The position numbers were made by a program, and so were the translations under genes. The notes beneath the pieces were generated by a model. The model was not told the DNA's origin. It saw only the letters and a list, made by a program, of their open reading frames with translations, and did not search any database. From a virus, in the IMG/VR virus record IMGVR_UViG_3300009093_000034, positions 241,834-305,833 of that record: DNA of 64,000 bases; one strand, given 5' to 3'. Below are positions 6,257 through 58,058 of this stretch, piece after piece; position 1 is the first letter of the stretch; every line of letters begins with the position of its first letter.

Positions 6257-6621
6257 AAGCATCGTTTTTTACAGCAAAGGTTTTGGGGGCAGTAATTGTA
6301 GATATTGCCAGAATCGAAGAAGCTGTTAAACAACATCGTGATCTTCATGGCAGATATCTAGCTATCAGGCACGCTAAGATCGCAGATGATCCCATGTGGG
6401 ATAGTTCATCTCACCAAAAGTCCACGAGTTATTCTGAGGTCTTAGAGTCTTTGATAAAGAAGAAAAATCTTCTAGAAGGAACTGACCAAGAAAAGATCTC
6501 CATCAGTGAAAATGAGTACGACGAGATCTTTACTCAAGAGTATCCTCTTCTTCATACTGAAGACTTCGTAAAACACATTGAAGCAATTGAAGGAAAGTTG
6601 GAAAAAACTAAAAGGTCTTGA
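6253..6621 (+). CDS. hypothetical protein, end of kinase operon
   Basis: A 122-residue soluble helical protein, overlapping the small basic gene by ATGA. Charged throughout, no recognised motif. Its TGA stop (6619-6621) is the first three bases of the TGAGATATTGTA element, so this gene ends exactly where the next transcription unit appears to begin. Confidence 0.75.
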   Translation: MKASFFTAKVLGAVIVDIARIEEAVKQHRDLHGRYLAIRHAKIADDPMWDSSSHQKSTSYSEVLESLIKKKNLLEGTDQEKISISENEYDEIFTQEYPLLHTEDFVKHIEAIEGKLEKTKRS

Positions 6622-6630
6622 GATATTGTA
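6619..6630 (+). promoter_or_regulatory. TGAGATATTGTA element, copy 1
   Basis: Perfect copy of the 12-mer found six times in the window. It overlaps the upstream stop codon and ends 20 bases before ATG 6651. A CAAGGAG Shine-Dalgarno lies between them. No convincing -35 box is seen. Interpreted as a phage-specific promoter. Confidence 0.7.
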
Positions 6631-6650
6631 CTCCGCAAGGAGTACCGAAA

Positions 6651-7451
6651 ATGGGCCAAACGAGCTATGGACGTGTAAAGGCTGAGATGGACATCGGAAC
6701 CTCGATGCCCTCCGGTCGCATGATCAAGGAAGGAACTCTCGGAGAGATTGTGTCTTTCGACGACAACAGTCTTACTGTCAAGTTCAAGGGTCATGGTCCT
6801 CTTCATTCTTTCGATCGCGGAAGCTATATGCTTCGCTATGCTCCTCGGCTCGCTTCTCACGGCACTCTCGACGCGGTCGAGATCATCACCATATTCGGTA
6901 TTTCGGACAAAGCATGGGAACGTCTTCCCAGCCTCTACAAGCATCTTCGCTTGAGCCGTACAACGGCTTCCAAGAGAGGTTTCTACGACCGTCTGGTGGA
7001 GTACAACAAGCCGATCAGTGACCATATCCATGGTGCTCTGACGGATGCAGGTTTTGCCAATGGCGAGCCTGCTAAGAACACACCTGAAGCGAACCCTGAT
7101 GCTGCTTTTTGGTGGGCTTTGTACAACACCTGGTGCAACATTGTCTACTCCCCCAACCACATGTCCATCCATCCCAACCATCACTCGACGGCTTTCGATC
7201 GTAACGAAGCCCTGATCGCCGAGATTGAGTATCTCATCGATTCGATGGAGCTGATTGGCAAGACCAAGAAGTTCATTCGTAAGATGATCGATACTGATTT
7301 CTACGAGAACGGGGTTCACGATCCTCGAGACCAGAAGAACCGCCTTGTGGCCTTGATTCAGGCTTACCTGAAGATCGAGATCAATCAGGCTCACAAGTTC
7401 CTCAAGGATCACTTCCCTGAGATCGACGCTAAGATCGGCGGAGAGTGGTGA
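6651..7451 (+). CDS. hypothetical protein with N-terminal beta-barrel-like segment
   Basis: A 266-residue protein starting at ATG 6651 behind SD CAAGGAG and the 12-mer promoter element. Residues 25-55 (LGEIVSFDDNSLTVKFKG) look like a small SH3/KOW-type barrel; the remainder is helical and rich in His, Trp and Tyr (IHPNHHST). Codons are markedly C-ending compared with the A/T-ending codons of the kinase operon, which fits high expression. No named family recognised. Confidence 0.8.
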   Translation: MGQTSYGRVKAEMDIGTSMPSGRMIKEGTLGEIVSFDDNSLTVKFKGHGPLHSFDRGSYMLRYAPRLASHGTLDAVEIITIFGISDKAWERLPSLYKHLRLSRTTASKRGFYDRLVEYNKPISDHIHGALTDAGFANGEPAKNTPEANPDAAFWWALYNTWCNIVYSPNHMSIHPNHHSTAFDRNEALIAEIEYLIDSMELIGKTKKFIRKMIDTDFYENGVHDPRDQKNRLVALIQAYLKIEINQAHKFLKDHFPEIDAKIGGEW

Positions 7452-7516
7452 AAGTCCTTTTGATCGTTGTGATCCTCTTGATTCTTTCTCCGATCCACAT
7501 TCACATTTCGTTCTAA
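7448..7516 (+). CDS. 22-residue hydrophobic membrane peptide
   Basis: GTG 7448 overlaps the previous stop (GTGA). The peptide is almost wholly hydrophobic (MKVLLIVVILLILSP followed by a His/Ile tail) and could form a single transmembrane helix. The stop-start overlap argues for translation. Function unknown. Confidence 0.5.
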   Translation: MKVLLIVVILLILSPIHIHISF

Positions 7517-7529
7517 GAGGTTTTTCATT

Positions 7530-7661
7530 ATGGCCAAACAACCGAAACGTGAAAGACTTTGGAACTTTGTAGAAGATCTTTCTAACTTTCTTTATTCGTT
7601 TGGAGATCTCCTTCCTGCTATTATCCAGTGGATCGTCTCTATCTTTGAAAACTTTTCGTAA
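7530..7661 (+). CDS. 43-residue amphipathic/membrane-associated peptide
   Basis: ATG 7530 is preceded by an AAGAGG Shine-Dalgarno. A basic head (MAKQPKRERLW) is followed by a hydrophobic aromatic-rich tail (LLPAIIQWIVSIFENF) that could insert in or lie on a membrane. No family recognised. Confidence 0.55.
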   Translation: MAKQPKRERLWNFVEDLSNFLYSFGDLLPAIIQWIVSIFENFS

Positions 7662-7672
7662 AGGCTAACACC

Positions 7673-8065
7673 ATGGATTCCAGAATCGAAGAACTGATTG
7701 ATTATTGTTTTTCTCTTGGTCAAGGTGGTTGGAACAACACCGAAGACAAAACCTATTACATGACTCAGGCTCTGGCAAAAGCCAAGGAGTTGAAACTGAA
7801 TCCTCTTCCTGGTCCAGCTTTCGCGGCCTCGAGTCCTGAGTACGAACCCGACTATGCTTTTACTCGTGAAGAGCAGATCGGAAAGTTCGCGGTAGATGCT
7901 ACCGACTTGGAAGAGCTTCCCATGGGGGAGTGGAAAAAAGTTCTCGAAGCTTATGAGCATTTTGGACGAGTGAAGGCTCTTCAGGTCGCCTACGGCCTCA
8001 AAGAGTGGACCTACAAAGAAACAGTTCGAGCTGTAGACAGGATCATCTATCGAGGTAAGGTATGA
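7673..8065 (+). CDS. hypothetical protein
   Basis: A 130-residue soluble, mostly helical protein. Its stop overlaps the next start by ATGA. No signal, membrane segment or recognised motif. Part of the run from 6651 to the terminator at 9251. Confidence 0.8.
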   Translation: MDSRIEELIDYCFSLGQGGWNNTEDKTYYMTQALAKAKELKLNPLPGPAFAASSPEYEPDYAFTREEQIGKFAVDATDLEELPMGEWKKVLEAYEHFGRVKALQVAYGLKEWTYKETVRAVDRIIYRGKV

Positions 8066-8586
8066 GAAAGACCATTCTTGTTTGGGTGACCAGAGACTCT
8101 TCCTGGAACATGGCCTCAGATCCTGAAAGGATCGAGATCAAGATTGATCAAGACTTGAGCTTCATGCACAAGGGAGATCAGTTTGAACTCTCCTCAGAAC
8201 TTCGAAGTCGTCTGATCTCTGAGAACCCTAAACACGTCAAGTGGATCAAGAGTTCTGAGTTCAAAAATTGGAGTCTTGTGATCCAGGCTCTTTATTACAT
8301 GGAGAGTGATGTTTGGATCATCGCTCTTGGAGAGGTTCTTCAAGAGACCGGTCCTGTGTACCCTCCTCAGTGCAAGAGAAACAGAACTACGATCGAAGAA
8401 GAGATCGAGAAAATTCAAGATGTTCTTAACTCTTCTGAATACAGTAGATTGATGTCTTGGTACACTTACAAAGATCGTTTCTCTTTCACCATTCGAGAGT
8501 ACTGTAAGTTTACCAACTCTGAACCTGATGAAGCCATCTACTTCTTGATGAAGTACTTTCCTGATACCTTCGACAAAAAGATGTGA
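8062..8586 (+). CDS. hypothetical protein
   Basis: A 174-residue soluble protein coupled to the previous gene by a 4-base overlap. It has a Trp-rich N-terminal half (ILVWVTRDSSWNM) and a charged helical C-terminal half. A single Cys pair is separated too far to suggest a zinc site. No recognised domain. Confidence 0.8.
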   Translation: MRKTILVWVTRDSSWNMASDPERIEIKIDQDLSFMHKGDQFELSSELRSRLISENPKHVKWIKSSEFKNWSLVIQALYYMESDVWIIALGEVLQETGPVYPPQCKRNRTTIEEEIEKIQDVLNSSEYSRLMSWYTYKDRFSFTIREYCKFTNSEPDEAIYFLMKYFPDTFDKKM

Positions 8587-8593
8587 GGACTCT

Positions 8594-8908
8594 ATGAACA
8601 ATACCGTTTTTGGAAAAAAGATCGATTTCAAAGAAGCTCTCAAAAAAATGGAAATGTCTGAGCTTCAGCCTGAACCTGAGATCAAAGATCATCCGATGGA
8701 AGTTACTGCTACAATCGAATATGATCCATCTTGGACATGTTTGGTCTATTCAGGTGATGATGAAATCGAAAAAGAACTAACAAAATTAGGATTTGTTCCT
8801 GGAAGTCTGACCAACATCGAAGATCTTCAGATCCTTTTAGATAAAGGTTACGATATAGGTCTTCTTCCAGAAGATAAAAATGGTCACATGATGTTCATGG
8901 TGACTTGA
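8594..8908 (+). CDS. hypothetical protein, tandem paralogue A
   Basis: A 104-residue protein with SD GAGGA before ATG 8594. Its C-terminal half (ELTKLGFVPGS, then a Leu-rich helix and a Gly-Tyr strand) matches the next gene (ELTALGFAPGS), so the two are tandem duplicates. The N-terminal parts differ. Function unknown. Confidence 0.8.
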   Translation: MNNTVFGKKIDFKEALKKMEMSELQPEPEIKDHPMEVTATIEYDPSWTCLVYSGDDEIEKELTKLGFVPGSLTNIEDLQILLDKGYDIGLLPEDKNGHMMFMVT

Positions 8909-8915
8909 GGTAATC

Positions 8916-9239
8916 ATGAAAAAGATCCAACTTGAAGGTTTCAAAATCACACCTGAAGAGATCATCAAAAGCTTTCCTTCTTTAGAGAAAAAAGAGGAAA
9001 GAGTACTTTTAGTGAACGCTCCTAGGACTAGTCTTTTCATGAAGGGTGTTATCCATGAGTATCATGGAGGGATCACCAAAGAACTGACAGCACTGGGGTT
9101 TGCTCCTGGTTCTATCGTAGATCTTCGTGAACTTCCACGTCTGCTTCAGAGTGGATATCGGGTGGCTCTTTTTCCTGACCCTGAAAAAGACCTTGTTTAC
9201 ATTGGGGTCACTCAGCACACTTCTTTTGGTGCAAGGTAA
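8916..9239 (+). CDS. hypothetical protein, tandem paralogue B
   Basis: A 107-residue protein, paralogue of the preceding gene through the shared ELTxLGFxPGS and the following LLxxGYxxxLxPD stretch. SD GAGG lies before ATG 8916. It is the last gene of its unit and is followed by a strong terminator at 9251. Function unknown. Confidence 0.8.
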   Translation: MKKIQLEGFKITPEEIIKSFPSLEKKEERVLLVNAPRTSLFMKGVIHEYHGGITKELTALGFAPGSIVDLRELPRLLQSGYRVALFPDPEKDLVYIGVTQHTSFGAR

Positions 9240-9250
9240 CTTACATTGAA

Positions 9251-9280
9251 AAGCTCCGATCTTCGGAGCTTTTTTCTTTT
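9251..9280 (+). terminator. rho-independent terminator
   Basis: Nine-base-pair stem AAGCTCCGA/TCGGAGCTT (9251-9259 with 9263-9271), three-base loop, then a T-rich run. It closes the 6651-9239 unit; the next promoter element begins five bases after the T-run. Confidence 0.9.
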
Positions 9281-9284
9281 TATA

Positions 9285-9296
9285 TGAGATATTGTA
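9285..9296 (+). promoter_or_regulatory. TGAGATATTGTA element, copy 2
   Basis: Perfect 12-mer directly after a terminator and 22 bases before ATG 9319, with SD AAGGAGG between. The terminator-then-motif arrangement is the clearest argument that the motif starts transcription. Confidence 0.75.
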
Positions 9297-9318
9297 AAAG
9301 ACCCAAGGAGGCCTTTGA

Positions 9319-9642
9319 ATGAACAAGATCGAGTTTGATGCCTGGACCAGAGAAACCAAGTTTTCCGAGAATGCTTGGGTTTTGGATACCATTCGGTACG
9401 CAAACACCGGAGATCTTCTGTTCTACAAGGGTGGTACCGACGGCGTCTACGTTTGGATTCAGATCGACGGTGTGGTTTCTGTAGGAACCTACGCTTACGC
9501 TATCCCCCATATCGGAGAGGCTTTGTTCATTCCGAAACATACTAATCAGGTAGCGAACACCCAAGAGGAAGCGTTCATCAAGATCGCTGAACGTCTTGGA
9601 GTTCAGATGCTGATTGACTTGGCTTCTTCTCGTGCTCTTTAG
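9319..9642 (+). CDS. hypothetical protein, first gene of a new unit
   Basis: A 107-residue soluble protein behind the 12-mer and a strong AAGGAGG SD. It has a Gly/Tyr/Trp-rich beta-like core and a helical C-terminus. No recognised family. Confidence 0.8.
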   Translation: MNKIEFDAWTRETKFSENAWVLDTIRYANTGDLLFYKGGTDGVYVWIQIDGVVSVGTYAYAIPHIGEALFIPKHTNQVANTQEEAFIKIAERLGVQMLIDLASSRAL

Positions 9643-9650
9643 GAGTTAAT

Positions 9651-10046
9651 ATGAAACTTGATGTCTGGGCTTCTTTGGGAGCTCTCAGTCTTCTCATCAT
9701 CGGAGCCATCGGTGGTCTAACCATTCTTGGTGCTGGTTCTGTCACTACTTACTACCAACTCCAGTTTACTTTCTGGGGATGCGTGTTGGGAACTCTCCCT
9801 GCTCTGGTGTACTTCATCATTTATCAGTGGAAACTTAGGGATAGAGACATCATTGAAGGTGCTTGTCACCTTCTTTCTCTCATGCTCTATTCTCCTCTTC
9901 TGGTTGTATTTGGGATTTTGATCTATCAGATTCCTAAGATGTGGGAAGGTCACCTCAATCTTTGGGTTCTGCCTTTGGCTGTAGGAATCGGGAACATCGC
10001 TTTCTGGTTCTCTAGCATGAGAAAGAAGGCTATCCACCGTGCTTAA
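9651..10046 (+). CDS. four-helix membrane protein
   Basis: A 131-residue protein with four hydrophobic segments at about residues 8-32, 40-60, 72-92 and 98-120 and a basic C-terminus (MRKKAIHRA). SD AGGAG before ATG 9651. An integral inner-membrane protein; no holin-like length pattern or named family recognised. Confidence 0.8.
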   Translation: MKLDVWASLGALSLLIIGAIGGLTILGAGSVTTYYQLQFTFWGCVLGTLPALVYFIIYQWKLRDRDIIEGACHLLSLMLYSPLLVVFGILIYQIPKMWEGHLNLWVLPLAVGIGNIAFWFSSMRKKAIHRA

Positions 10047-10755
10047 CTACAAGATCAACGGAAAAGACATCTACGACTTCGACAACAAGAAGATCTATCT
10101 CTTGAAGTCTGAACCTTCCGACGAAGACCAGCAGATCGAAGACTTGATTAAACTGGCGGAAACCGACGAGACCAGGAACATGCCTGAAAACATCTTCCTT
10201 CTCAAAGACAACAACCAGTATTGGACCTCGCTGAAGGTTCAAAACGAGATCAACAAGAAAGTCAAAGTTCTTGAGGATCTTGTCAGGAAAGAGTGGAAGA
10301 AGCAAGAAAAGATCCTCAAGAAGATCGACGAGACTCGAGTCAAGGATTGCGAGTACTGGATCGAATACAACCCTCAGCATGACTACAAGGTCATGTGTGA
10401 CTTCTTCAGGGAGAGATGCTTTGATGCTGGTTCGTTCTATCCTAACACCATGCAAAGAGCTCTTCGATTCTCGAAGTACTACTACAAGAAAGAGAGCTTC
10501 ATTTCAGGATTGACTGAACTTCTTCCTTTCATCAGGCCCATTCAGGGTTACAAGCAGTTCCAGTGCAAGTCCGATGAGTACCAAGGGATCTATCACTTTG
10601 GTACCAACGACGAAGGAAAGACCTGGAAGATTCTCAGACAAAGGTACCATCGAGATTGGGTAGAAGAGAAATCTTACACTCTTGACGAGATGATTCAGTG
10701 GCTAGAAGACCACGAAGTTAAGGGTCGAACCTACTACGACGAGAACGAGGACTAA
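10039..10755 (+). CDS. hypothetical charged protein
   Basis: A 238-residue protein starting at GTG 10039 and overlapping the membrane-protein gene by 8 bases. Highly charged, with a Lys/Glu-rich probable coiled coil (about residues 75-110) and a Tyr/Trp-rich C-terminal half. No recognised motif. Confidence 0.8.
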   Translation: MLNYKINGKDIYDFDNKKIYLLKSEPSDEDQQIEDLIKLAETDETRNMPENIFLLKDNNQYWTSLKVQNEINKKVKVLEDLVRKEWKKQEKILKKIDETRVKDCEYWIEYNPQHDYKVMCDFFRERCFDAGSFYPNTMQRALRFSKYYYKKESFISGLTELLPFIRPIQGYKQFQCKSDEYQGIYHFGTNDEGKTWKILRQRYHRDWVEEKSYTLDEMIQWLEDHEVKGRTYYDENED

Positions 10756-10756
10756 C

Positions 10757-11095
10757 ATGGACAAGAAAGAAATTTTCAAGAACGAGATCAAACTCGGTCT
10801 TAAAATGTTGGCTGAACCTCTAAGTGCTGATGGTATCAATTACCTGGCTGAAAGGTTGTCCAAAGTTGACACTGAAGTCAACGAGGCCAACAATCCTGCT
10901 GCTCAGAGTTTGATCAATCTCCTTGAAGGAGTTGACCACTCGGTTAACGTTCTGGAGATCGTAGCCAATTGGATGATCAATACTCCTGAAGCTACCGTTT
11001 ACCAAGTAAACGAGATGGGAAAAAAGATTGGCCAAACTATCGACATCATGAAAGATTGGCGTCGAATCATCGAGATGACTAAGAGGTTGATGTGA
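10757..11095 (+). CDS. hypothetical helical protein
   Basis: A 112-residue, predicted all-helical soluble protein, one base after the previous stop. No Cys and no motif. Its stop overlaps the GTG of the next gene. Confidence 0.8.
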   Translation: MDKKEIFKNEIKLGLKMLAEPLSADGINYLAERLSKVDTEVNEANNPAAQSLINLLEGVDHSVNVLEIVANWMINTPEATVYQVNEMGKKIGQTIDIMKDWRRIIEMTKRLM

Positions 11096-11556
11096 ACGAA
11101 GAACGAAAACTTCTCAGTGATCTTCTGTTGGCCCTCAACTCGGCTTTTCACTCTCAAGGTTGGGATCCTCAGGATCTTATTGAGGTCCGAAAAGCCCAAG
11201 AGTTCTTGTGGCCTCCTAAGAAGCCTGAACTTAAGATCGAAGATCCTAAGAACTTTGGCTTCTTCTACAGCTCAACCTACCCTTACCTCTTCATGGCTGA
11301 AATCATAGAAGAGAAAGAATTGGTCGACATGGCTGGAACTGAGGTGGTCCTGGAGAGTGGTGAACATCGACACTCCAGTAGGGTTGCTTTCAGAACCACC
11401 GCTAAAGCAGCCGAGGTGATCCTCAAAGATCTTCTTGATCTCAAGTTCAAGAAGGAAAGCAAGATGGCCGATGTGAGCTACGAGATGGACAAGAAGTTGA
11501 CTGAGATTCTCAACGACTATCGAATCAACTTGACTGCTGAGGACTTGAAGAAATGA
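11092..11556 (+). CDS. hypothetical protein, GTG start
   Basis: A 154-residue soluble protein starting at GTG 11092 within the upstream GTGA. A helical N-terminus, a short beta-rich middle (VVLESGEHRHSSRVAFR) and a Lys/Glu-rich helical C-terminus. No recognised family. Stop overlaps the next start by ATGA. Confidence 0.8.
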   Translation: MNEERKLLSDLLLALNSAFHSQGWDPQDLIEVRKAQEFLWPPKKPELKIEDPKNFGFFYSSTYPYLFMAEIIEEKELVDMAGTEVVLESGEHRHSSRVAFRTTAKAAEVILKDLLDLKFKKESKMADVSYEMDKKLTEILNDYRINLTAEDLKK

Positions 11557-11900
11557 AAGTCTGGCAACTCAATCAGATGGTTGACCTTGGCTACAAGACT
11601 CTCTTCGTCTGCCTTTCTCAAGAAAAGGCTTACAAGGTCATGGAAGACCATAATAAAGAAGTCGACCGTCTCAGTGCTCTTGTAGATCCCTGGAATGAAG
11701 AGCTTCAACGACTCAATCCTTGGGCCGATCCAGTTCTCAGTGAGAAGATGAAGCTTCTCACCGAAGAAGAACTTTCTACTCCTGAGTACGATGAGATCTT
11801 CAAACCCTACGACGAAAAATGGGCTCTCTACAAGGAGCTCTTCAAGACTTACGTCCTCGGACCTATCAACATGGTAGCAGAGGTAGAGGTGATCGAATGA
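11553..11900 (+). CDS. hypothetical acidic protein
   Basis: A 115-residue soluble acidic protein, rich in Glu, Asp and Trp, coupled to both neighbours by 4-base overlaps. No recognised motif. Confidence 0.8.
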   Translation: MKVWQLNQMVDLGYKTLFVCLSQEKAYKVMEDHNKEVDRLSALVDPWNEELQRLNPWADPVLSEKMKLLTEEELSTPEYDEIFKPYDEKWALYKELFKTYVLGPINMVAEVEVIE

Positions 11901-12280
11901 CTGAAAAAATCCTTATGCTTCCTTTGGGAGCTGAAGTCGTTGTTACTGACGACGGCATTCGATCTCGAGGTCGTGTCTGTATTCTTGGAGACGACGGAGA
12001 GATGGATGAGAAAAGCGTTTGGTACTCTCCCTCTGGCTTTAACAATGTTGAAGTCATCAACGGGACGGCTACAACTTCTCACAAACCCATTCCTGAAGTT
12101 TCAGGTACTAGAACGATTCAACAGATCGTTACTGATATCGAGGCTGCTAAGGTTCACCTGGCAGAAGATCGAGACAAGCTCCGAGATCTTCTCTATGAGA
12201 TCGAGGACTTGATGGCAGACAAAGACGAAGACATCGCCAAGCTGGATGAAGTAGTCGACTCTCTTTCGAGGTACGTATAA
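11897..12280 (+). CDS. hypothetical protein with C-terminal coiled coil
   Basis: A 127-residue protein. ATG 11897 (overlapping the previous stop) is preferred to the upstream in-frame ATG at 11819, which lies inside the preceding gene. The N-terminal 50 residues are beta-like; residues 75-125 are a heptad-rich acidic coiled coil (DKLRDLLYEIEDLMADKDED). Function unknown. Confidence 0.75.
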   Translation: MTEKILMLPLGAEVVVTDDGIRSRGRVCILGDDGEMDEKSVWYSPSGFNNVEVINGTATTSHKPIPEVSGTRTIQQIVTDIEAAKVHLAEDRDKLRDLLYEIEDLMADKDEDIAKLDEVVDSLSRYV

Positions 12281-12465
12281 TGTCTCAAGGAATAGAGACC
12301 AGGGAAACAAGAGCTCAAAATGTATTGACTCGAACTGTGGATATCTTAGAAAGCTCTGGTTTTAGCAATGATTCAAAAAGAGACGCTCTAGAATATCTTC
12401 GAGATTGCTTGAACACTCCGGTAATTCTTAACGATGTTCTAGACTCTTTTCTAAAGGAGAAGTGA
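12280..12465 (+). CDS. small hypothetical protein
   Basis: A 61-residue helical protein whose ATG shares a base with the preceding stop (TAATG). No recognised motif. Confidence 0.7.
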   Translation: MSQGIETRETRAQNVLTRTVDILESSGFSNDSKRDALEYLRDCLNTPVILNDVLDSFLKEK

Positions 12466-12466
12466 T

Positions 12467-12691
12467 ATGACCATTGGACAATTTAGACTTCTTACCAAAG
12501 ACGCCGATGACGATACTCCTCTTTTGATCCCAGGTAGCGATCATAGCTACCGAGATGCAGAAGCTACTAAAACCACAGCTCTTCGTGAAAAGTACGGTTA
12601 CAACAGCTATGGTTGGACTGAAGACTACGGCGAAGACATGACTCCTGAAGCTGAGTACGGAAAACGAACAGACGTTATCGTTTTAACCTAA
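12467..12691 (+). CDS. small acidic hypothetical protein
   Basis: A 74-residue protein one base after the previous stop, preceded by AAGGAG. Rich in Asp, Tyr and Thr. No recognised motif. Confidence 0.7.
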   Translation: MTIGQFRLLTKDADDDTPLLIPGSDHSYRDAEATKTTALREKYGYNSYGWTEDYGEDMTPEAEYGKRTDVIVLT

Positions 12692-12697
12692 AACACC

Positions 12698-13514: not shown

Positions 13515-13516
13515 CC

Positions 13517-16560: not shown

Positions 16561-16583
16561 TTTCTAACTCTTTCCTAAGATCG

Positions 16584-16595
16584 TGAGATATTGTA
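16584..16595 (+). promoter_or_regulatory. TGAGATATTGTA element, copy 3
   Basis: Perfect 12-mer in the 62-base gap after nadE, 27 bases before ATG 16623, with SD AAGGAG between. No terminator hairpin is evident upstream of it. Confidence 0.7.
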
Positions 16596-16622
16596 GTAGT
16601 CTAAAACCAAGGAGTTTAAGAG

Positions 16623-17684: not shown

Positions 17685-17685
17685 C

Positions 17686-18422: not shown

Positions 18423-18423
18423 C

Positions 18424-19725: not shown

Positions 19726-19735
19726 GGAGAAAGTC

Positions 19736-26877: not shown

Positions 26878-26927
26878 CTATGTTCTCCTCTCTAGTTAGT
26901 TAACAAAGTAAAAACTCGCCTATATCT

Positions 26928-26939
26928 TGAGATATTGTA
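26928..26939 (+). promoter_or_regulatory. TGAGATATTGTA element, copy 4
   Basis: Perfect 12-mer in the divergent gap between the minus gene at 26877 and the TTG start at 26960, 20 bases before that start, with SD AGGAGG between. Confidence 0.75.
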
Positions 26940-27321: not shown

Positions 27322-27333
27322 TGAGATATTGTA
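27322..27333 (+). promoter_or_regulatory. TGAGATATTGTA element, copy 5
   Basis: Perfect 12-mer between a terminator and the gene at 27363 (29 bases to ATG, SD AAGGAG). The gene it serves is bounded by terminators on both sides, so it must have its own promoter, and this is the only conserved element present. Confidence 0.78.
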
Positions 27334-31222: not shown

Positions 31223-31230
31223 TTAATTAG
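31223..31230 (-). promoter_or_regulatory. CTAATTAA late-gene motif (fibre gene)
   Basis: Perfect CTAATTAA on the minus strand, 15 bases before the fibre start. One of five perfect copies in spacers of the structural run. Confidence 0.55.
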
Positions 31231-31236
31231 TCGGGC

Positions 31237-33182: not shown

Positions 33183-33190
33183 TTAATTAG
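33183..33190 (-). promoter_or_regulatory. CTAATTAA late-gene motif
   Basis: Perfect CTAATTAA on the minus strand, 20 bases before GTG 33162. It contains the stop codon of the 2614-residue protein gene. Confidence 0.5.
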
Positions 33191-36100
33191 TGCTTGGAAT
33201 AGTGAACTGACCTTCCTTAATGAACAAGTTGAAAGAGAGATGGTGCCTGGTTGTGTTGTAGATGATAGGTGGGAAGGTTCCGTACGCTAACATCTGTCCA
33301 GCCTTATTGAACACTCCAACCTCTGTGATGGAAACAGTTGCAGATTCTTGAGACTTAGGATCCAACGTGTTTCTCTTGGTGTTGATCATGTACTTAGCAT
33401 CCACGGAAGCAGGAAGAATAGAGATGGTGTCAATGTCGCTGGCATCTGTGTAAACATCTGGAAGATTGAAGAAGTATCTTAATCCGTAGACCTGGCTGAC
33501 AGCGTTGGTGATGTTTCTGTTAGCAGTCAAGATAACGTTCAACTCTCCATTGATTGAGTCAAAGGCTTGAGCTTGAGGGAAGCTAACAACACCTGGAGTT
33601 GTGTCGTTGATTGTGTAACCTAGCGTGCTCTTTACATAAGCTAGGTCAGAAGCAACTTCTGAGTAAACGTGAATTCCCTTGAAAGAGCTCTTCTTCTTTT
33701 GATAAATCTTTACCAATTGACTCCACTGTTGGTTCTCATAGATGTCTTGGATCTGAAGATACTGCCAAAGTGGGTTAGAGTCGGTGTCTTGAACGTCGAA
33801 GAATGCCGTGGTGAACCAATCTTGGTTGAACAAGTAAACTGGTTGTTGAGGTTGGAAAGCCTCTGTGACCAGGACGATCGGAACGCTTGTCGTTGTTCCA
33901 GGTGGATAAGCGTAGATCAAGTTTCCTTGGTCATCAGCAAGATAAACTGGAGACTGGTTAGCGTTGACAAAGTTACCTGTCGTAAAGAGAGTAGGATCAT
34001 CCAAAGGATAGGTGCTGTTCTCATAAGAAACTCTATCTGGAGGGAAGGTCACGATCTGAGACTTTGTAACTTGAGCCCATAGAGAAGAGTTCTTGAAGTT
34101 GCTAGGAGACAAGGTGATCGATGCTGCAGTCAAGAGGTTCAACTGAACAGAGTCTCCTACTTGAGAAGAAGAACTGAGTCTTGTTGAGAGCATGACCGAC
34201 ACTGCTGTTGCTGTGTTGGTAACTCCTGAGATGCTGATGTTCGATGGAATCGTTATAGAAACGTTTCCAATGACCGTTCCCAAGTTGTTCAGAACTTCTG
34301 AGTACAAGAGGTACAAAGGAGCTTGGATAGGAATAGGATCACTGCTTCCATCAAGAACCAAGGTTCCTGTCGAGGTAGTTAGGTTAACCCAATCTCCTCT
34401 GGTGTTCTTCACATAGATAGGAGTTGTGTGTCCTGAACCTAACCACATGAAGGCATCAGGGTCAGTAACCCAAGGAAGAGTAGGATCTGATGGATCTTGT
34501 CCTATGTAACTTCCTAGACCACCGCCTGTTCCACCAACTCCGTTCTTAGGGAAGAAGGCACCTGTGATGAGAAGGTCTAGAGTAACGTACCATCTTCCAG
34601 TGTCAGAATCTTGAAGAACGAGAGGCGAACCAGCGTTAGACTGGAACTGAGCTTGAAGATCTTCTTGAGGAGCCAAACTGTATGTCTGGTGCACAGACTC
34701 GAACCCTGGGTTAGTACCAGTGGAAGGAACTGGTGCAGGAACAAGAGCCCCAGAGTACTGAGGGATCTGGTAGAAGACTTGTCCGTTATCAACCAAAGCT
34801 GCCAAACCGAGGTTTCCTGAGGTGGTCTCTTGTTCATAGTGAGGAATTCCAACCAAAGGAACGGCCACAGGAGTTTGTGGTAAGAAGGTCATTCTGATAG
34901 CTTGTTGGTCTGGGTTGGCTGAAGGAGTCAATCCTTCTGTCAAGATCAAGTAAGGAGGATCATCTGTTTGAAGGTTGTGGATCTCGGCGATTTGGACCGT
35001 GTTGAGATCTCCACCTCCATGAACGGCAGGAACTGCTCCTTGAATCTCTTGGAAGTCTGCTCCAGACTCCAACCAAGAAGCGTAGGTCTCATAGATTGGG
35101 GTGTAAGACAAGACTCTTGGGTTTGAGACACCTGTGATAACTCCAGCTTGTTGTACAAGGTCAAAGTCTGTAACAGAGAGTTCAGCAAAAGAGTTGTCAA
35201 TGTAGTTTCCAAGACCATCACACAACCAAATGTTTTGGAGAGCGCTGTTCTGGTTTCCAACCAAAGCTCCAGTCGGATCTATCTTGTAGAGATTAGCGTT
35301 CTCTGAAGGAAGAGGATATCCATTTTGGTGGATATAGAACGGAGAGTCTGGGTTGGTCAAGGACAAGTTGGTTCTTGGCAAGTAGATTCTGTTAGCGTAG
35401 GTCTTGCTATCTACAGGAAGAACAAACTGGATTGGGAACTGTCCAGAGACGGGGTCTGAGAAGGACTGAAGCTTGTCTAGAGGGATTCCAGACCATTCTT
35501 TATCGATAGGTCTAATTGTGTTGAAGGCAATGAGAAGGATCTTAGAGAGCTCTCCAGGTGCAAAAGCGTCGGTCGTGATCAAGCTCTCTGACAAAGTGAT
35601 TCTTGTGCTTGAGATGTTCACAGCGTAGTGATCTCCAACCACGAACTCTGTTCCACCTGTGACTGAGGTACCTGCGAAGAAGCTGTGACTCAAGGTGTCA
35701 ATCAAGATGATCTCACCCATGAAGACAGCAGATGAAACGATGTTTCCAGAGGTGGCCAAAGTTCTGCTTTGAGGGTCGGTGTCTGTGAGAGGGTTGAAGA
35801 CGTACAAGGTTCCGGTATTACCGTAGTAGTACCACGTTCCTAGAGAATAAACCATCCCCAAGATGGTCAACGTCGTGTTGACAGCATCAATGGATGATCC
35901 TGTCCAAGTAGCTCCGCCGTCTGTGGAGGTCAAGAGCTGCTTAGTAGCATCTGTAGTGACACCAGAAGCAACCAAGTTGATACCGTCGGTGGCAAGAGCG
36001 TTGATCTGTCTGTTTGTAGCTCCAAGCTCATCAGTGATGACACCAAAGATTGGAGGAGTGATCAAGTCAGTCGTGAGAAGAATGGCTGCGTTAGATGATG

Positions 36101-41027: not shown

Positions 41028-41045
41028 AAAGAAATTAGTGGGATT

Positions 41046-43531: not shown

Positions 43532-43539
43532 TTAATTAG
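43532..43539 (-). promoter_or_regulatory. CTAATTAA late-gene motif
   Basis: Perfect CTAATTAA on the minus strand, five bases before ATG 43526, where no Shine-Dalgarno is present. Confidence 0.55.
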
Positions 43540-43545
43540 TGTTTC

Positions 43546-45399: not shown

Positions 45400-45425
45400 G
45401 AACAATTAGTAATTAGCTAGGGCTC

Positions 45426-47006: not shown

Positions 47007-47014
47007 TTAATTAG
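47007..47014 (-). promoter_or_regulatory. CTAATTAA late-gene motif
   Basis: Perfect CTAATTAA on the minus strand, 19 bases before ATG 46987; overlaps the stop codon of the upstream gene. Confidence 0.55.
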
Positions 47015-47403
47015 TGAGAAAAATCTAATGGACTTTCGTCAAGTGGGTCATCAGGTGGGAGACTAACATCCCAGCCTATTTGATGAAAGATCATGGCTAC
47101 CTCAGACTCTGTAGTAGCTTTTTTCACTAGCTCCATCGCAGGACTCTTTTTCTTCTTTCCCTTAAGAGCTTCTGTGATCATCTTTCCAAGAACTTCAGTC
47201 TTTACTTCTTCGGCAAGAGACATAGGAAGAGCAGAGAGCCAACCGTTCAGCACAGCATCAAAGATGAGTTCCTTTTGAGTTTCAGCCAAATCAGGATAAA
47301 GAACCTTGTCTTCTAGCATGTTAGTGACAGCGCTAATAGTGAACTTTACAGCAAAGAGAAAACGTTCTTTTAGTTGTTTTTGAGTTTCATCGTAATTTGA
47401 CAT
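47011..47403 (-). CDS. hypothetical protein in tail module
   Basis: A 130-residue helical protein with a Lys-rich centre (KGKKKKSP) and an acidic Pro-rich end. It lies where tail-assembly chaperones are found in other phages, but no frameshift site or family resemblance supports that. No SD: TTAATTAA ends one base before ATG. Confidence 0.7.
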   Translation of the reverse strand: MSNYDETQKQLKERFLFAVKFTISAVTNMLEDKVLYPDLAETQKELIFDAVLNGWLSALPMSLAEEVKTEVLGKMITEALKGKKKKSPAMELVKKATTESEVAMIFHQIGWDVSLPPDDPLDESPLDFSH

Positions 47404-51457: not shown

Positions 51458-51520
51458 TGTTATTTCCTCCAAAGGCTACATATGAAGAGCCTGTGATGGA
51501 TAATTAGTAGTGAGAAAATA

Positions 51521-52819
51521 CTAACGTTCTACGGGTTTAGATCCCCAAGTTGTGCCTTTTAGAGGTCCAAGTCTTCGACGCTGAGGAAGATCTGGAGTCT
51601 CGTGTTGACCTGGTACGGCTAGAGTTGTCACAGTAAGGTGGAAGTCAGTGATTCTTCCACCGATGGAGTAGAACAACATGACAACACTGTATTGAGAGTT
51701 AGGATAAAGTCCAGTGATCCAGACCTCTTTGATTGAAGGATCATCAATGATGATAGGATCTCGGCCTTGAATCAAGATCTTGACTTGTGCTAAGTTAGGC
51801 AAACTCTCTTGAGAGACCTCCCACTTAAGCAAGAAACCGCTCTCTGTGATGGTGTCTGACGGAACCACAGCCAAATCAAGCATGATGTCGGTAGAGGCTT
51901 CAAAATAACCTTGAATGACGTCTTGGAGCTCTGTTGTTCCAGTTGAGTCTAGAACAGGTTGAGATGGTATGATGTCACCATTGATCTCTTCTGGGTTTCC
52001 AGAAAGATCCGTAGGTCCATCTGCTCCACCAGTTGTAGAAGCATCTGTCCAAGCCTTTGACTCAGCAAAGGCCAAGAGAACTCTTTCGGTGATATAGACT
52101 GCATTATCTGCATCAGACTTTGCTCCTGTGTTCCAAACAGATGTTTCTGGGATCTGGTTGGTAAGAAGATCTACTTGATACGGATAATATAGAATGTAGG
52201 TTCTTAGCGTGATCTTGAGGTTGATTGGAAGAATTCGTTGCTTCTTAAGCCAATCTCCCTCTTTGTACTCTGGATTGTACTGAAAGCTCTCGATGGTGAA
52301 GAACGTAGGAATTGAGATGTCCGTGTTCTTCCAAGTAACCGAGCTAGTAAACTGAATTGGACCCTTTGGGTTGTATTCCCAAAGAAGTTTCTCAAAACCA
52401 ATACGAGCATCTTGGTCACTGTCATAGAAGATGGTGATGTCAAAGGTTGTCTTGACAGCCATGGCTTTCATGGCAGTTGGAAGACCTGCTTGCCAAAGAC
52501 CTCTTACCATTTGAGAGGTGTTTTGAACGTTAGGCCTGTCATCTAGCTCCCAAAACTTTCCATTCTCGTACCAATATGTGATGAAAGGAAAACCTAGAGC
52601 AGATGCTTGAATGGTCTTGAAGTTAACACCGTTGTTGGTGTCGTTTTGTTGCATCCTTCTTCTGAAGGACATGTCTGGTGAAGTCCAGACAACTCTAGTC
52701 AGGTCTCCTCTTAAGAACGCCTGACTAAGAAAGAACTCTAGTGGGATTAGAGCTGCATTGAATGAGTCACTATAGTATTTTCGAGAAAAGAAGAACTTCT
52801 GTGCGAACTCTTGAGCCAT
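51521..52819 (-). CDS. virion protein with C-terminal Fn3-like domain
   Basis: A 432-residue protein immediately upstream of the sheath. Residues 1-240 are a mixed alpha/beta structural domain; residues 320-400 (LKWEVSQE...IKEVWITGLYPNSQYSVVMLFYS) resemble a fibronectin type III domain. Likely a tail terminator, neck or baseplate component. No SD; CTAATTGA lies six bases before ATG 52819. Confidence 0.65.
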   Translation of the reverse strand: MAQEFAQKFFFSRKYYSDSFNAALIPLEFFLSQAFLRGDLTRVVWTSPDMSFRRRMQQNDTNNGVNFKTIQASALGFPFITYWYENGKFWELDDRPNVQNTSQMVRGLWQAGLPTAMKAMAVKTTFDITIFYDSDQDARIGFEKLLWEYNPKGPIQFTSSVTWKNTDISIPTFFTIESFQYNPEYKEGDWLKKQRILPINLKITLRTYILYYPYQVDLLTNQIPETSVWNTGAKSDADNAVYITERVLLAFAESKAWTDASTTGGADGPTDLSGNPEEINGDIIPSQPVLDSTGTTELQDVIQGYFEASTDIMLDLAVVPSDTITESGFLLKWEVSQESLPNLAQVKILIQGRDPIIIDDPSIKEVWITGLYPNSQYSVVMLFYSIGGRITDFHLTVTTLAVPGQHETPDLPQRRRLGPLKGTTWGSKPVER

Positions 52820-52825: not shown

Positions 52826-53869
52826 TCAATTAGTCTGAACCACAGGCGTGGGAGGAACAATAAGTTCTCTCACGATCTTCAAAGTTTGTCTTGAGATAGG
52901 AGTTTCTCGGGTCTTCAAATACTCTGTGAAAACATCAGCGATGTTCTCGGCATAGAAATCATCAGACGATAAAGCAAGTTGAGAGTTTCTGACTTTCTTG
53001 ACCATAGAAACAGACCTGATGAAAACCCCAGGATAAGCTTGTTCAGCAATGGACTTGGTCTCAACTCCCAACACAGTCCAAACTGAAACTTTTGCATCTG
53101 TTTCAGGAAGAGGTTTTGGATATTCTACAAAGTAGTAACCGCAAAAGACTGGAAGCTCCAACTCTTCTTTAGAGACTCCAACATCCGTTTTCTTGATCTT
53201 CCAAATTGCTCTAGGAAGAAGAGTCTCGTGTTCGGAGATCTTGCAAGCATAGGCAGATCCGGTGTAGTGATCATTCCATCTTGAGTGGATGTCACCTAAA
53301 CAAACTAGGTTTGTCTTGATTGGGTTCAAGTTGATCTGATGAGCGTAGATCTTATCTGAGGAGTTGTCTGCAAAGTGGCCAAGGACAACGTCATACTCTT
53401 GGTCTAAGATGTTCTGAGGTAAGTTGGAGTAGTAAAGATTCATTGGAGGAAGATCTACTCTGTAGTTATAGTGAGGAAGAGACAAAAACTTCAGGCCAGA
53501 GATGTGAAGAATCTCTGCAGGCTCACGAAGAATGGTGATCCTATCTCCAGACAAGAAGCTAAATGAAAGATGTGGCTTTCCTTTGAAAAGCTTCAGGTCA
53601 TGGTTTCCTACCATGAGAAAACTATGGGTGAACTTGTCCAGAAGAATCTTTCTGAACCTTTCTAATTGATCAAGAACTCCACCTACGTTTGAGGCATCGT
53701 CCATCAAGTCACCAAGACAGATGAAGATTGAATCTGGTTCAACTTCAAACTCAAACTCAAACCAATCTAGGAAAGCATCACCTACAGCCGGTCGCCATTC
53801 TTGGTTAGCTGAAAGGTGAAGATCACCTAAGATATAAACAGATCTGTTTTTATCAATTATTGACGACAA
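52826..53869 (-). CDS. SbcD/gp47-like metallophosphoesterase
   Basis: A 347-residue protein with every metal-site block of the calcineurin-like fold: GDLHLS (Asp16, His18), GDLMDD (Asp54), GNHD (88-91), GHFADN near 170 and GDIHSRW near 195. This order is typical of SbcD/Mre11/T4 gp47 nucleases that process DNA ends together with an SbcC/gp46 ATPase. No such ATPase lies in the window. The TTG start overlaps the upstream stop by 17 bases. Expressed with the late genes, perhaps for recombination-dependent replication. Confidence 0.8.
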   Translation of the reverse strand: MSSIIDKNRSVYILGDLHLSANQEWRPAVGDAFLDWFEFEFEVEPDSIFICLGDLMDDASNVGGVLDQLERFRKILLDKFTHSFLMVGNHDLKLFKGKPHLSFSFLSGDRITILREPAEILHISGLKFLSLPHYNYRVDLPPMNLYYSNLPQNILDQEYDVVLGHFADNSSDKIYAHQINLNPIKTNLVCLGDIHSRWNDHYTGSAYACKISEHETLLPRAIWKIKKTDVGVSKEELELPVFCGYYFVEYPKPLPETDAKVSVWTVLGVETKSIAEQAYPGVFIRSVSMVKKVRNSQLALSSDDFYAENIADVFTEYLKTRETPISRQTLKIVRELIVPPTPVVQTN

Positions 53870-54284: not shown

Positions 54285-54860
54285 TCACTCCGTTTGTGGA
54301 TCGTCAGTCTCGTCATGGTTAAGAGTACTCAATAGTTGACTGTTCTTGAAAAAGTACTCTGCGGCTGATTCAAGGGTGAATCTTCCTGCACGATAGTTCT
54401 TTAAGAAATGAATACAACTTTTATTCATCTTATAACGAAGCTGTTCCTCCGAACCTTCCTGTTGAATAAGGAAGATGTCCTTGTAAACCAGGACACGGGT
54501 GATGGTCCAAAGTATCTCTTCCACCTGAGTCTTTGTGGCTGGAATCTGATCTGGTTCTAGACCAGACTCTAGAGCAGCGGCGACTTCTTGTGGTGTTAGA
54601 GCTACCTCAGATTCAATCTGTTGAAGCATTCTAGGATAATGCACCAAGATCTTCATCTTGATGTCATAAATGAAAGTTTTAACTGGAGTCTCAAAATCCC
54701 ATGGGAACTCGTACCTTGTGTTCGAGTTAGAATGGATGATGGTCACTCCCTTATCTGAAGTTATGAACTTCAGAAGAATCGGAGCCTTGTCACAGAAGTT
54801 TGATAACTTCTTGATCAAGATTCCTTTGTACGTTTCTGCGGAGATCTTTTGATGAAGCAT
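54285..54860 (-). CDS. hypothetical protein
   Basis: A 191-residue soluble protein, mostly helical, with no recognised motif. AAGGATAT about 13 bases before ATG is a poor SD. It is in the replication/nuclease part of the minus-strand run. Confidence 0.75.
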   Translation of the reverse strand: MLHQKISAETYKGILIKKLSNFCDKAPILLKFITSDKGVTIIHSNSNTRYEFPWDFETPVKTFIYDIKMKILVHYPRMLQQIESEVALTPQEVAAALESGLEPDQIPATKTQVEEILWTITRVLVYKDIFLIQQEGSEEQLRYKMNKSCIHFLKNYRAGRFTLESAAEYFFKNSQLLSTLNHDETDDPQTE

Positions 54861-54936
54861 TTATTCGCTTATATCCTTTGAGTAGAACTCATGATGTTTG
54901 ATTAGGTTTTACTACTCACAAAATTAGTGATTAGTC

Positions 54937-55225: not shown

Positions 55226-56326
55226 TTACTCTCCTTCTAATTCATTTTCTCCGAAGTTAAATGCTTCGGAGTATCTTTGATGCAAACTTGATCTAATTGT
55301 GTCTAACCATTTTCGTTTTCTAAAGGACTCAACGGTCTTATTTAACTTTTTGGTTATGTCGCCAACATCCTTAATATACATGGTTTTAACTACGTGGGTT
55401 TTAGGATCAATACCTTGATATTGAATCTTTGGGATCTCAAGAATTGAGAAAGAAAATCCTAATTCTTCTTTTAGTTTTTTGACTACTTTCATCCCAGCGA
55501 TGTCTCTATCTGGAATTAGAATGATTTGAGAAAATCTTTTTAGCAGATGAATCTGCCTACGAGAAATTGATGCGCCAAAGATGGCTGTGCTGTTCTTGAA
55601 AAAAGGATCTGTTCTAAGGATCGCTAGGTCCATTAATCCTTCAACAACATAAAGGGGTTTTGTTGGATCTAAGTTCTCAAGATCATAAAGAGAAGAAACT
55701 GTTGTGCCAACAGGATATAGAACCTTTTTATCTTGATCACCAACTACGTCTCGACCTTCAATCGAGATTAGTTTATCGCCTTCGTAGATGGGTATGACCA
55801 ATCTGTTAGTAAAATGAGTGTAGTAATCTAGTTCTTTAGAACCCTTGATCTTGATATTAGATGCCCAACCCATTTGCATGGCATGTGCCACTTCAAACGG
55901 GATGCCTCTAGATCGTAGGTACTTAACAGCTAAGGGACTACTTGAAAATGGTTCAATCGAGCCTTCTTTCATCTCAATTTGAACATCTTTATCCAGGATA
56001 TCTAAGTTTTCTTGTTCGTAATTAGAATGATACTCCATCGCTTGTTGATGGAACTCATCGTTCGAAAGGCCGAGATCTTGGTAAAGAGATCTCTCTGTGA
56101 GATCCCAATACATACCTGCAATTGTTCCAGATTTACTGCAACCAAAACAGTGATAAATGCCGAGATCTACGTTGACTGCACAAGAAGCAGTCTTCTCATC
56201 ATGAAATGGGCATCGAATAAAGATGCGATGGTGCCAAGAACGTTCTGGCGTGGCACAATGTAAGTGTAATCTATGAACGGCTTCAGATACCAAAACTTTT
56301 GGATCTATCGTGTGTTGGAGAGGCAT
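55226..56326 (-). CDS. DnaG-type DNA primase (CHC2 zinc finger + Toprim)
   Basis: A 366-residue enzyme that makes RNA primers for replication. The CHC2 zinc finger is Cys39-xx-His42...Cys60-xx-Cys63 (CPFH and CFGC). The Toprim core follows with PLYVVEGLMD (catalytic Glu near 228) and LIPDRDIAG (Asp pair near 270). Shorter than bacterial DnaG (about 580-650) because the helicase-binding C-terminus is absent, as in phage primases. A pair of operator-like dyads lies just upstream (56341-56403). Confidence 0.88.
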   Translation of the reverse strand: MPLQHTIDPKVLVSEAVHRLHLHCATPERSWHHRIFIRCPFHDEKTASCAVNVDLGIYHCFGCSKSGTIAGMYWDLTERSLYQDLGLSNDEFHQQAMEYHSNYEQENLDILDKDVQIEMKEGSIEPFSSSPLAVKYLRSRGIPFEVAHAMQMGWASNIKIKGSKELDYYTHFTNRLVIPIYEGDKLISIEGRDVVGDQDKKVLYPVGTTVSSLYDLENLDPTKPLYVVEGLMDLAILRTDPFFKNSTAIFGASISRRQIHLLKRFSQIILIPDRDIAGMKVVKKLKEELGFSFSILEIPKIQYQGIDPKTHVVKTMYIKDVGDITKKLNKTVESFRKRKWLDTIRSSLHQRYSEAFNFGENELEGE

Positions 56327-56340
56327 ATTTAACCCTTGAT

Positions 56341-56403
56341 GTGTGTAATATAAGTTACATTACTATGAAATTCTAACACCAATGTGTAACTTGTGTCACA
56401 TTA
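56341..56403. promoter_or_regulatory. pair of operator-like dyad repeats upstream of primase
   Basis: Two similar 23-base segments, 56341-56363 and 56381-56403, agree at about 16 positions. Both begin TGTGTAAY and end ACATTA, and each is an imperfect palindrome. Centres are 40 bases apart, about four helical turns. Likely binding sites for a regulator of the primase unit; the second overlaps the stop of the upstream gene. Confidence 0.45.
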
Positions 56404-56883
56404 TCTTCTAGCGAATGGAAGTGAAGGGCTCGTATTAGTCGATGGTGATTTAACGCTTATGTCTAGAGGGTTGGGAATAGCTTCTAGAGCAGGAATGGTC
56501 GGAACTACTCCAGCCAAGTTCTCTGCAGGGTTAATAGATTCTTTATCTTTTTGTGCTCTAGCCTTAGCTTGAATGTTAAGTTCCTTCTGTCTATTGATGA
56601 TCTGTTCGGACATGGGTCCTAATCGTTCCAATCGAAGCCTTTCTCTATCAAGAAGCCAGAACACACCGTAGCTATTCAAAGCTTCTGAGATTCTAGAGCC
56701 ATATTGAGGTCCGATTGTTTCATTGGTCAACTTCAAGAATTCTTCAAATGAAAGTAGTCTGTAATCTTCGTCCCCGTCTGGTTGAACCTTAACCATCTCT
56801 CTGGTAGGATCACAGGAGAAAGTCAAAAAGTAATAGCTTAGGAGAGATGGGTTCGATAACTGAACCATGGGAGTCTTAGTCAT
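56401..56883 (-). CDS. hypothetical protein, head of minus-strand run
   Basis: A 160-residue protein: helical N-terminal 105 residues, then a Pro/Ser/Asn-rich tail. First gene of the 29-kb minus-strand run, bordering the AT-rich divergent region 56884-57042. CTAACTGA lies two bases before ATG. Function unknown. Confidence 0.7.
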   Translation of the reverse strand: MTKTPMVQLSNPSLLSYYFLTFSCDPTREMVKVQPDGDEDYRLLSFEEFLKLTNETIGPQYGSRISEALNSYGVFWLLDRERLRLERLGPMSEQIINRQKELNIQAKARAQKDKESINPAENLAGVVPTIPALEAIPNPLDISVKSPSTNTSPSLPFARR

Positions 56884-57042
56884 GATCAGTTAGTCTCTAT
56901 CTTCAACCTCTTCTCAATTTGGGCTGGCCCTAAGTATTTCTATTCTTATTATGTTAGATTCTTATATATGCTATCTGACTTGCACACTGTTCATAGTAGT
57001 CAATCTAACAAACTATAGACTAAATAGATAAAACATAATTCA
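56884..57042. other. AT-rich divergent intergenic region
   Basis: About 160 bases between the head of the minus-strand run and the plus-strand polymerase promoter. Rich in TATA-like steps (TATATATGC, AACTATAGAC, AAATAGATA). No open frame of note and no long dyad. A likely double-promoter region; an origin role cannot be judged from sequence. Confidence 0.5.
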
Positions 57043-57071
57043 TTTACGGTGAACAGGTTCTCGAGTATACT
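57043..57071 (+). promoter_or_regulatory. sigma70-like promoter for split polymerase
   Basis: TTTACG (57043-57048), a 17-base spacer, then TATACT (57066-57071). Predicted start near 57078, leaving a short leader with SD AAGGAG (57080-57085) before TTG 57093. It differs from the 12-mer promoter element and could use host RNA polymerase. Confidence 0.6.
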
Positions 57072-57092
57072 CTGTCAATAAGGAGTACGGGG

Positions 57093-58049
57093 TTGTTAAA
57101 GATTACACCACGAACTGTCAGACGCCAAATCAAAGACGCTGCCGAGTTCATCCAGTACAAAAACATCTCTCCAATGGAAGAGATGAGACAAGACGCAAAG
57201 CCTGTGAACTTCGGACTTATGTTCGGGTCCAGTGCCAGAACGTTCGTTAACGCTGTTCTAGAAACCCGTTGGACAGAACAGCAGTGTGACGATTACATAG
57301 AGTCCAACAACCTCTATGACTTAAAAGACCAAATCATCGCTAGGAACCCAAGAGACACCCCTGTGTTTTGGAAGTACTTGACCTGTGCCTCAGACATTCG
57401 AAACAAGTTCTTCAACACCTACAAAGGACTGAAGGAAAGAATCGACCGAGAAAGGGTCTTTGCTTATCAGCACGGATACGTCAGAAGTTGGCATGGCCAG
57501 GTAAGAAGAATCCCAGAGCTCTTCATCATGGACCACACTGATGCAGGTCGACCATCTGGAGACGACAACTCTCTTTACTCTAGGGTCATCGGAAACCTTC
57601 AGAACATTGCTTCTAACACCTCTATTCAGAATTTCGAAGCAAGCATAGTCATGCCTGCCATCATTGAACTTCATATGTGGTTTCATGAGAACAAGATGAA
57701 GAGCTTCATCTGGAACTCTGTTCACGACTCTATTGACCTTTGCATCTATCGACCAGAGTTGGACATCGTGGCAGCTAAGATCAAAGAAGTCTGTACAGAC
57801 TCTAAGATCTACAAGAACCTTGGTCTTTTCAAAGATTGGGGACTTAACATGGATATCGACATGATGGTAGCTGACTTGACAGACCCCAATGAGTACTACA
57901 AGGGTGGAAAGAAGTACAAGTTCAAGGACGATGTCGAGGTTACTCCTTCTACGAAGATCAAGATAGACCCAAAGCTTAGAGAGATGGAAGAAGCTTGGTT
58001 CCCAAAGAAGAAAGTTCCAACCCGTAAAGTACGGTCTCAAAAGTCTTGA
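57093..58049 (+). CDS. family A DNA polymerase, C-terminal half (split gene)
   Basis: A 318-residue protein containing only the end of a Pol I-type polymerase. Motif B is RQDAKPVNFGLMFG (Arg32, Lys36, Phe-Gly 40-41, with Phe for the usual Tyr) and motif C is WNSVHDSIDL near residue 210. Motif A (DYSxxE), the rest of the palm and any exonuclease are missing, and the upstream gene runs the other way. TTG 57093 has SD AAGGAG at 7 bases and its own promoter, so this half is expressed as a separate protein. The partner half should lie outside the window. TGA overlaps the 12-mer at 58047. Confidence 0.85.
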   Translation: MLKITPRTVRRQIKDAAEFIQYKNISPMEEMRQDAKPVNFGLMFGSSARTFVNAVLETRWTEQQCDDYIESNNLYDLKDQIIARNPRDTPVFWKYLTCASDIRNKFFNTYKGLKERIDRERVFAYQHGYVRSWHGQVRRIPELFIMDHTDAGRPSGDDNSLYSRVIGNLQNIASNTSIQNFEASIVMPAIIELHMWFHENKMKSFIWNSVHDSIDLCIYRPELDIVAAKIKEVCTDSKIYKNLGLFKDWGLNMDIDMMVADLTDPNEYYKGGKKYKFKDDVEVTPSTKIKIDPKLREMEEAWFPKKKVPTRKVRSQKS

Positions 58050-58058
58050 GATATTGTA
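58047..58058 (+). promoter_or_regulatory. TGAGATATTGTA element, copy 6
   Basis: Perfect 12-mer overlapping the polymerase stop and ending only three bases before the ligase ATG at 58062. If it is a promoter, the ligase message would be leaderless or nearly so. Confidence 0.65.

Follow-up and report, generated by a model that had tools for sequence, protein, structure and literature searches.

The DNA under study is a window of 64,000 nucleotides, representing positions 241834-305833 of a 305,833-bp IMG/VR virus record (IMGVR_UViG_3300009093_000034). Its + strand carries six exact copies of the 12-mer TGAGATATTGTA, hereafter T1, each located shortly upstream of a start codon. Its minus strand carries a block of tail genes, with tail-protein, baseplate-wedge and tail-tube matches, in which another motif, ACTAATT (T2), recurs ahead of the genes. 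A third motif, TATACTA, is designated T3. Copies of T1 are as follows (window coordinates):

6619..6630, + strand: T1 upstream of gene 6651-7451; gene 6253-6621 uses the TGA of this copy as stop codon
9285..9296, + strand: T1 right after the intrinsic terminator 9248-9274, upstream of gene 9319-9642
16584..16595, + strand: T1 upstream of gene 16623-16961
26928..26939, + strand: T1 upstream of gene 26960-27274, divergent from the T2 at 26894
27322..27333, + strand: T1 right after a terminator, upstream of gene 27363-27662
58047..58058, + strand: T1 3 nt before the ATG of the DNA ligase gene 58062-59441; gene 57093-58049 uses the TGA of this copy as stop codon

These positions agree exactly with the initial annotation, which had reported six perfect + strand copies 3-29 bases before starts. 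From the motif end to the start codon the distances are, in order, 20, 22, 27, 20, 29 and 3 nt. The two copies described there as directly following terminators are those at 9285 and 27322, and the same arrangement is found at position 56441 of the record. Overlap of the T1 TGA with the stop codon of an upstream gene, seen at 6619 and 58047, also occurs at record positions 138945 and 161684. The 104-aa product of gene 26960-27274, located behind T1, weakly matches the C-terminal domain of ribosomal L7/L12 (E 3e-5, slightly below the curated cut-off).

Repetition of the 12-mer is far above chance, as had been claimed. Six copies in the window compare with 0.01 expected from dinucleotide shuffles. 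In the whole record, searched relative to starts as the initial annotation had suggested, there are 23 exact copies (22 forward, one reverse), compared with 0.032 expected under a second-order Markov model. T1 is the most repeated 12-mer of the record, the next unrelated one reaching seven copies, and read backwards it is absent from the whole record. The idea that T1 arose by chance repetition or as a composition artefact, for which its AT-rich character and nothing else speaks, is practically negligible in the face of these counts; moreover, the same pipeline returned no such motifs from a 144-kb distant relative that shares PARP, NAMPT and ligase. Twenty-two of the 23 copies lie outside called genes and the remaining one at the extreme 3' end of a small open reading frame (ORF). 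Mostly intragenic copies, the outcome that the initial annotation had named as contrary to its proposal, are thus not observed. Each of the 23 is oriented towards a start codon or transcription unit, the sole minus-strand copy towards a minus-strand start. Copies with a single mismatch (TGAGATATTATA, TGAGATATTGAA and others) precede starts as well; two such T1-like copies, at 212 and 42423, have no start downstream and were set aside as probably due to chance.

A blind search for k-mers enriched ahead of 401 called starts independently recovered all three motifs. Copies of T2, including the variant ACTAACT, are distributed in the window as follows:

26894..26900, minus strand: T2 variant ACTAACT upstream of gene 26452-26877
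31225..31231, minus strand: T2 upstream of tail protein gene 28004-31207
33185..33191, minus strand: T2 upstream of gene 31237-33162
41033..41039, minus strand: T2 5 nt from the ATG of gene 33183-41027 (2614 aa)
43534..43540, minus strand: T2 7 nt from baseplate wedge gene 41046-43526
45404..45410, minus strand: T2 4 nt from the ATG of gene 44614-45399
47009..47015, minus strand: T2 upstream of gene 46271-46987
51502..51508, minus strand: T2 upstream of gene 48992-51472
52828..52834, minus strand: T2 8 nt from gene 51521-52819
54922..54928, minus strand: T2 upstream of gene 54285-54818
56888..56894, minus strand: T2 variant ACTAACT 4 nt from gene 56401-56883
62828..62837, + strand: TATACTAACT, in which T3 and T2 overlap, ahead of gene 62931-63563 (HSP20-like)

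The window holds fewer copies of ACTAAYT than chance predicts (12 vs 17.9); 11 of these 12 occupy the minus strand, and nine are in the tail block. The record contains 54 copies of ACTAATT, of which 48 are intergenic; the six intragenic ones are all on the gene's own strand. No more than 40 nt separate 37 copies from a start, whereas letter-permuted heptamers have a median of one copy so placed. In eight cases ATG follows at exactly 4 nt. The tail block has no functional-looking T1, as the single TGAGATATT present there is antisense and inside a gene. Because T2 is concentrated in this block and T1 lacks a functional-looking copy in it, late timing seems likely for T2 and early or middle timing for T1. 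T2 is probably a late promoter, which would serve the minus-strand tail block together with many other genes. For the tail proteins themselves, searches of phage, genome and viral collections gave no relatives other than those in the same phage.

Presence of the motifs depends on gene arrangement. Among 96 genes overlapping the gene before them, only 1 has T1, T2 or T3 within 70 nt, and among 110 genes with a gap of 0-15 nt, 13 do; the proportion rises to 48 of 92 for gaps of 15-100 nt and to 15 of 30 for first genes of divergent pairs. This distribution argues for promoters and not for translation signals. Proximity to starts and ribosome-binding sites could suggest that T1 and T2 act in RNA, as 5' untranslated region or translation elements. 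However, overlapping genes need translation signals equally, T1 also stands ahead of a non-coding unit and tRNAs, and the frequent distance of 3-6 nt to ATG leaves no space for a leader, so that such a role is highly improbable.

Short divergent gaps in the record hold outward-facing pairs of motifs (17234-/17248+, 74727-/74736+, 104687-/104700+, 122232-/122242+); the second pair combines T2 on the minus strand with a T1-like copy on the + strand, the third T2 on the minus strand with T3 on the + strand. T1 at record position 56251 is followed by approximately 170 nt without ORF (56263-56440), a terminator and the next T1. This non-coding unit, located just upstream of the PARP/WGR gene, folds better than its shuffles (z -3.1). 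T1-like copies also occur upstream of tRNAs, for example at 144570, 70 nt away. Otherwise T1 is mainly found ahead of + strand non-structural genes, namely those for rIIA-like protein, PARP, CCA-adding enzyme, DNA ligase and small proteins. Placement, orientation, terminators, divergent gaps and non-coding transcription units thus strongly support the initial proposal that the 12-mer is a promoter, and T1 may be regarded as a putative phage-specific core promoter. The T1-driven unit at record 56263-56440 represents a candidate phage small RNA.

TG-A-GATATT is invariant across the 23 T1 copies. With the start position that we infer, it contains TGn, A at -11 and T at -7, i.e. the components of an extended -10 element. 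Of 23 leadered T1 sites, 18 have a purine as base 4 behind the 12-mer, and none has G as base 3. Flanks of 39 TGAGATATT sites were compared with shuffled flanks (2000 sets). C is present at -16 in 20 of 39 sites, T at -19 and -20 in 25 and 24 sites, respectively. The top position is not equalled in any of the 2000 shuffled sets (p<0.0005); when only the exact copies are used, 23 in number, p is 0.015. Full TTnnC is found at the expected offset in eight of 39 sites, compared with a mean of 1.07 per offset. TTGACA does not accompany any T1 at the -35 position. The earlier statement that T1 has no -35 box therefore holds solely for consensus TTGACA, since a weak TTnnC sits at the canonical place, with a 17-bp spacer.

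The T1 promoter would accordingly be laid out as a weak TTnnC at -35, a 17-bp spacer, the extended -10 TG-A-GATATT, a conserved GTA discriminator and a start about 4 nt past the 12-mer. The 12-mer would be its core element, covering approximately -15 to -4, with TG at -15/-14 and GATATT at -12 to -7. Like sigma70 extended -10 promoters, T1 combines TGn with a hexamer having A2 and T6, 17 bp to a -35-like TTnnC and a probable purine start; unlike them, it has GATATT in place of TATAAT, near-fixed TGA and GTA, and no TTGACA. The extended -10 geometry and the weak -35 signal point to a sigma70-family-like holoenzyme as reader of T1 rather than an unrelated polymerase. Distance from motif to ATG is bimodal, 3-6 or 15-37 nt for T1 and 4-9 or 14-37 nt for T2. 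In the simplest reading, mRNAs would either be leaderless, beginning with ATG or immediately ahead of it, or have room for a Shine-Dalgarno sequence.

Near-invariance over 12 bp exceeds the usual demand of sigma, and an operator could well be located at -15 to -4. T1 might thus overlap ordinary host promoters and bind a phage activator or repressor. Yet no canonical sigma70 promoter is present alongside T1, and sigma70-like matches are below chance in window positions 1-20000 (15 vs 23, standard deviation 4.5). T1 is also asymmetric, non-palindromic and fixed in orientation, and at 9285 and 27322 there is little space for a second promoter between terminator and T1. We regard this explanation as quite unlikely.

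Late promoters of T4 consist of TATAAATA, a short -10-region element present in many copies at structural genes and read by host RNA polymerase with gp55/gp33. T2 resembles them in being a short -10-region element without clear -35, in many copies and at structural genes; it differs in its sequence and in having ATG often 4 nt behind, and the phage has no match to the gp55 families (phrog_234, phrog_12791). TATAAATA itself occurs twice in the genome, which does not indicate late promoters of the T4 type. T4 middle promoters, having a relaxed -35 and a -10 element, depend on host sigma70 with AsiA and MotA. Such phage-altered use of sigma70 is a possible model for T1, whereas T1 has its conserved 12-mer at -10 and T4 its MotA box at -30. 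AsiA and MotA are absent from the Pfam families listed, neither having been searched for directly.

Near-invariant AT-rich elements of about 10-12 bp near -10 typify early promoters of virion RNA polymerases (vRNAP) in jumbo phages (PMC7598289); the early promoter motif of AR9 is AAATATATATTAT-(6N)-G (PMC5312081). T1 shares with these phiKZ and AR9 promoters its near-invariance, its AT-rich character, its place around -10 and its detection by bioinformatics (PMC7598289, PMC5312081), but the sequence is another one, sequence alone reveals two or three classes, and RNA polymerase genes are not detectable in the phage. The resemblance, together with many large proteins of the phage that lack assignment, could mean that T1 and T2 are promoters of an over-diverged phage RNA polymerase, like the phiKZ-like vRNAP and non-virion RNA polymerase. 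Against this, multisubunit polymerase families PF00623 and PF00562 gave no match (14 of 14 controls matched), and the catalytic motif DFDGD or (N)AD(F)DGD is missing from plausible six-frame ORFs. Motif B of single-subunit polymerases is restricted to four small ORFs (91-314 aa) and, with exact spacing, was not found in any six-frame ORF of 250 or more codons; in the PF00940 search the control was empty. TG-A-GATATT and the -35 geometry are sigma-like, and T2 is definable by sequence, whereas late promoters of such phiKZ-like phages were not sequence-predictable (PMC7598289). A polymerase of the phage's own is rather unlikely. Of the readers named in the initial annotation, the phage-encoded polymerase is hence not supported, while a dedicated sigma or an altered host polymerase is still likely.

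According to reviews, most jumbo phages have no RNA polymerase and rely on that of the host, and sigma factors are often encoded by them (PMC13282480; PMC7824862). No family listed in the Pfam scans is a sigma; the scans covered 195 called proteins between 95 and 300 aa, most of those of that size, in three sets, two of them judged on the first 25 families. Weak sigma-like matches of g107013 and g98327 were rejected as chance. A DnaJ-zinc protein at 22011, Q-like at first look, was rejected too. Some phages act on host RNA polymerase with ADP-ribosyltransferases and acetyltransferases (PMC7824862); an ADP-ribosyltransferase-fold protein (record 114194-114826), a GNAT acetyltransferase domain and PARP are encoded here. 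Since neither an RNA polymerase signature nor a known sigma was found, host RNA polymerase with one or more phage factors too diverged to recognise is the most likely reader.

Taken together, it is likely that this orphan jumbo phage has two or more promoter classes, probably three, that T1 is the core element of one of them, and that host polymerase, re-programmed by phage factors, is the reader. These specificity factors, a divergent sigma or a sigma-appropriating co-activator, would direct the host enzyme to T1 and T2. T1 would mainly drive + strand non-structural genes, and also some stretches of tRNAs and one or more non-coding RNAs; ACTAA(T/C)T would drive the tail block and numerous further genes, frequently in a leaderless-like manner. 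Several points weigh against this reading. Neither PF04542 nor the two gp55 families nor the E. coli sigma profile gave a sigma match; the last is a weak test, as it also missed T4 gp55, and the phage factor may therefore be as diverged as gp55. The -35 signal is weak, T3 is a weaker motif than T1 and T2 with few sites only, and we infer early, middle and late timing from gene content alone. Finally, no related phage carrying T1 was found, the distant relatives (G002-G011) being without T1 in number. A more specific version, in which the two or three specificities are conferred by an initiation factor of an undescribed family (new sigma-like or sigma-appropriating) and late virion mRNAs are leaderless, starting from ACTAATT-NNNN-ATG, is put forward tentatively, with somewhat less than even confidence. 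In sequence, T1-T3 match none of the T4, phiKZ and AR9 promoters compared, and TGAGATATTGTA was not found in the literature searched; the three motifs thus appear to be lineage-specific phage promoter classes.

The last 123 bases of the record, which is classed as linear, are identical with its first 123 (window 63878-64000). In IMGVR_UViG_3300025913_000024, a contig of the same phage, motif copies follow in the order expected across the end junction of the record. Given this repeat and this order, we conclude that the genome is essentially complete and either circular or circularly permuted. Among IMG/VR contigs matching the 12-mer plus AGGAG, the same contig was the only one with two matching stretches.

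Other gene content comprises a FliM domain protein (record 95960-96637; flagellar motor switch PF02154, 8.5e-15), very unusual in a phage, with a FliMN_C match (1.2e-22) in the same protein set; its gene is near a GroEL-like gene (record 92884-94485). There are 51 tRNA genes (record 89383-159849), one with a CTA (amber/Pyl-type) anticodon. Related functions are the CCA-adding enzyme behind T1 and, elsewhere, Thg1 tRNA-His guanylyltransferase and RNA ligase domains. A large NAD/ADP-ribose gene set (window 14677-21136; record 56481-57692 and 114194-114826) includes NAD synthetase, nicotinamide phosphoribosyltransferase, PARP with WGR and ADP-ribosyltransferase; NADAR and Macro domains also occur in the set of proteins scanned.

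What appears unusual, for a phage in which initiation proteins were not recognised, is the near-invariance and readability of these signals and the leaderless-like type of the late class. Its gene-expression programme would be partly readable from DNA, through a near-invariant 12-letter signal and a separate 7-letter signal for virion-tail genes. Timing of genes in polymerase-less jumbo phages is little studied, and the promoter classes described here give sharp predictions of start sites, including those of leaderless late genes. With a clear promoter code and no recognisable sigma or polymerase gene, this phage may be a good place to seek a new initiation factor.

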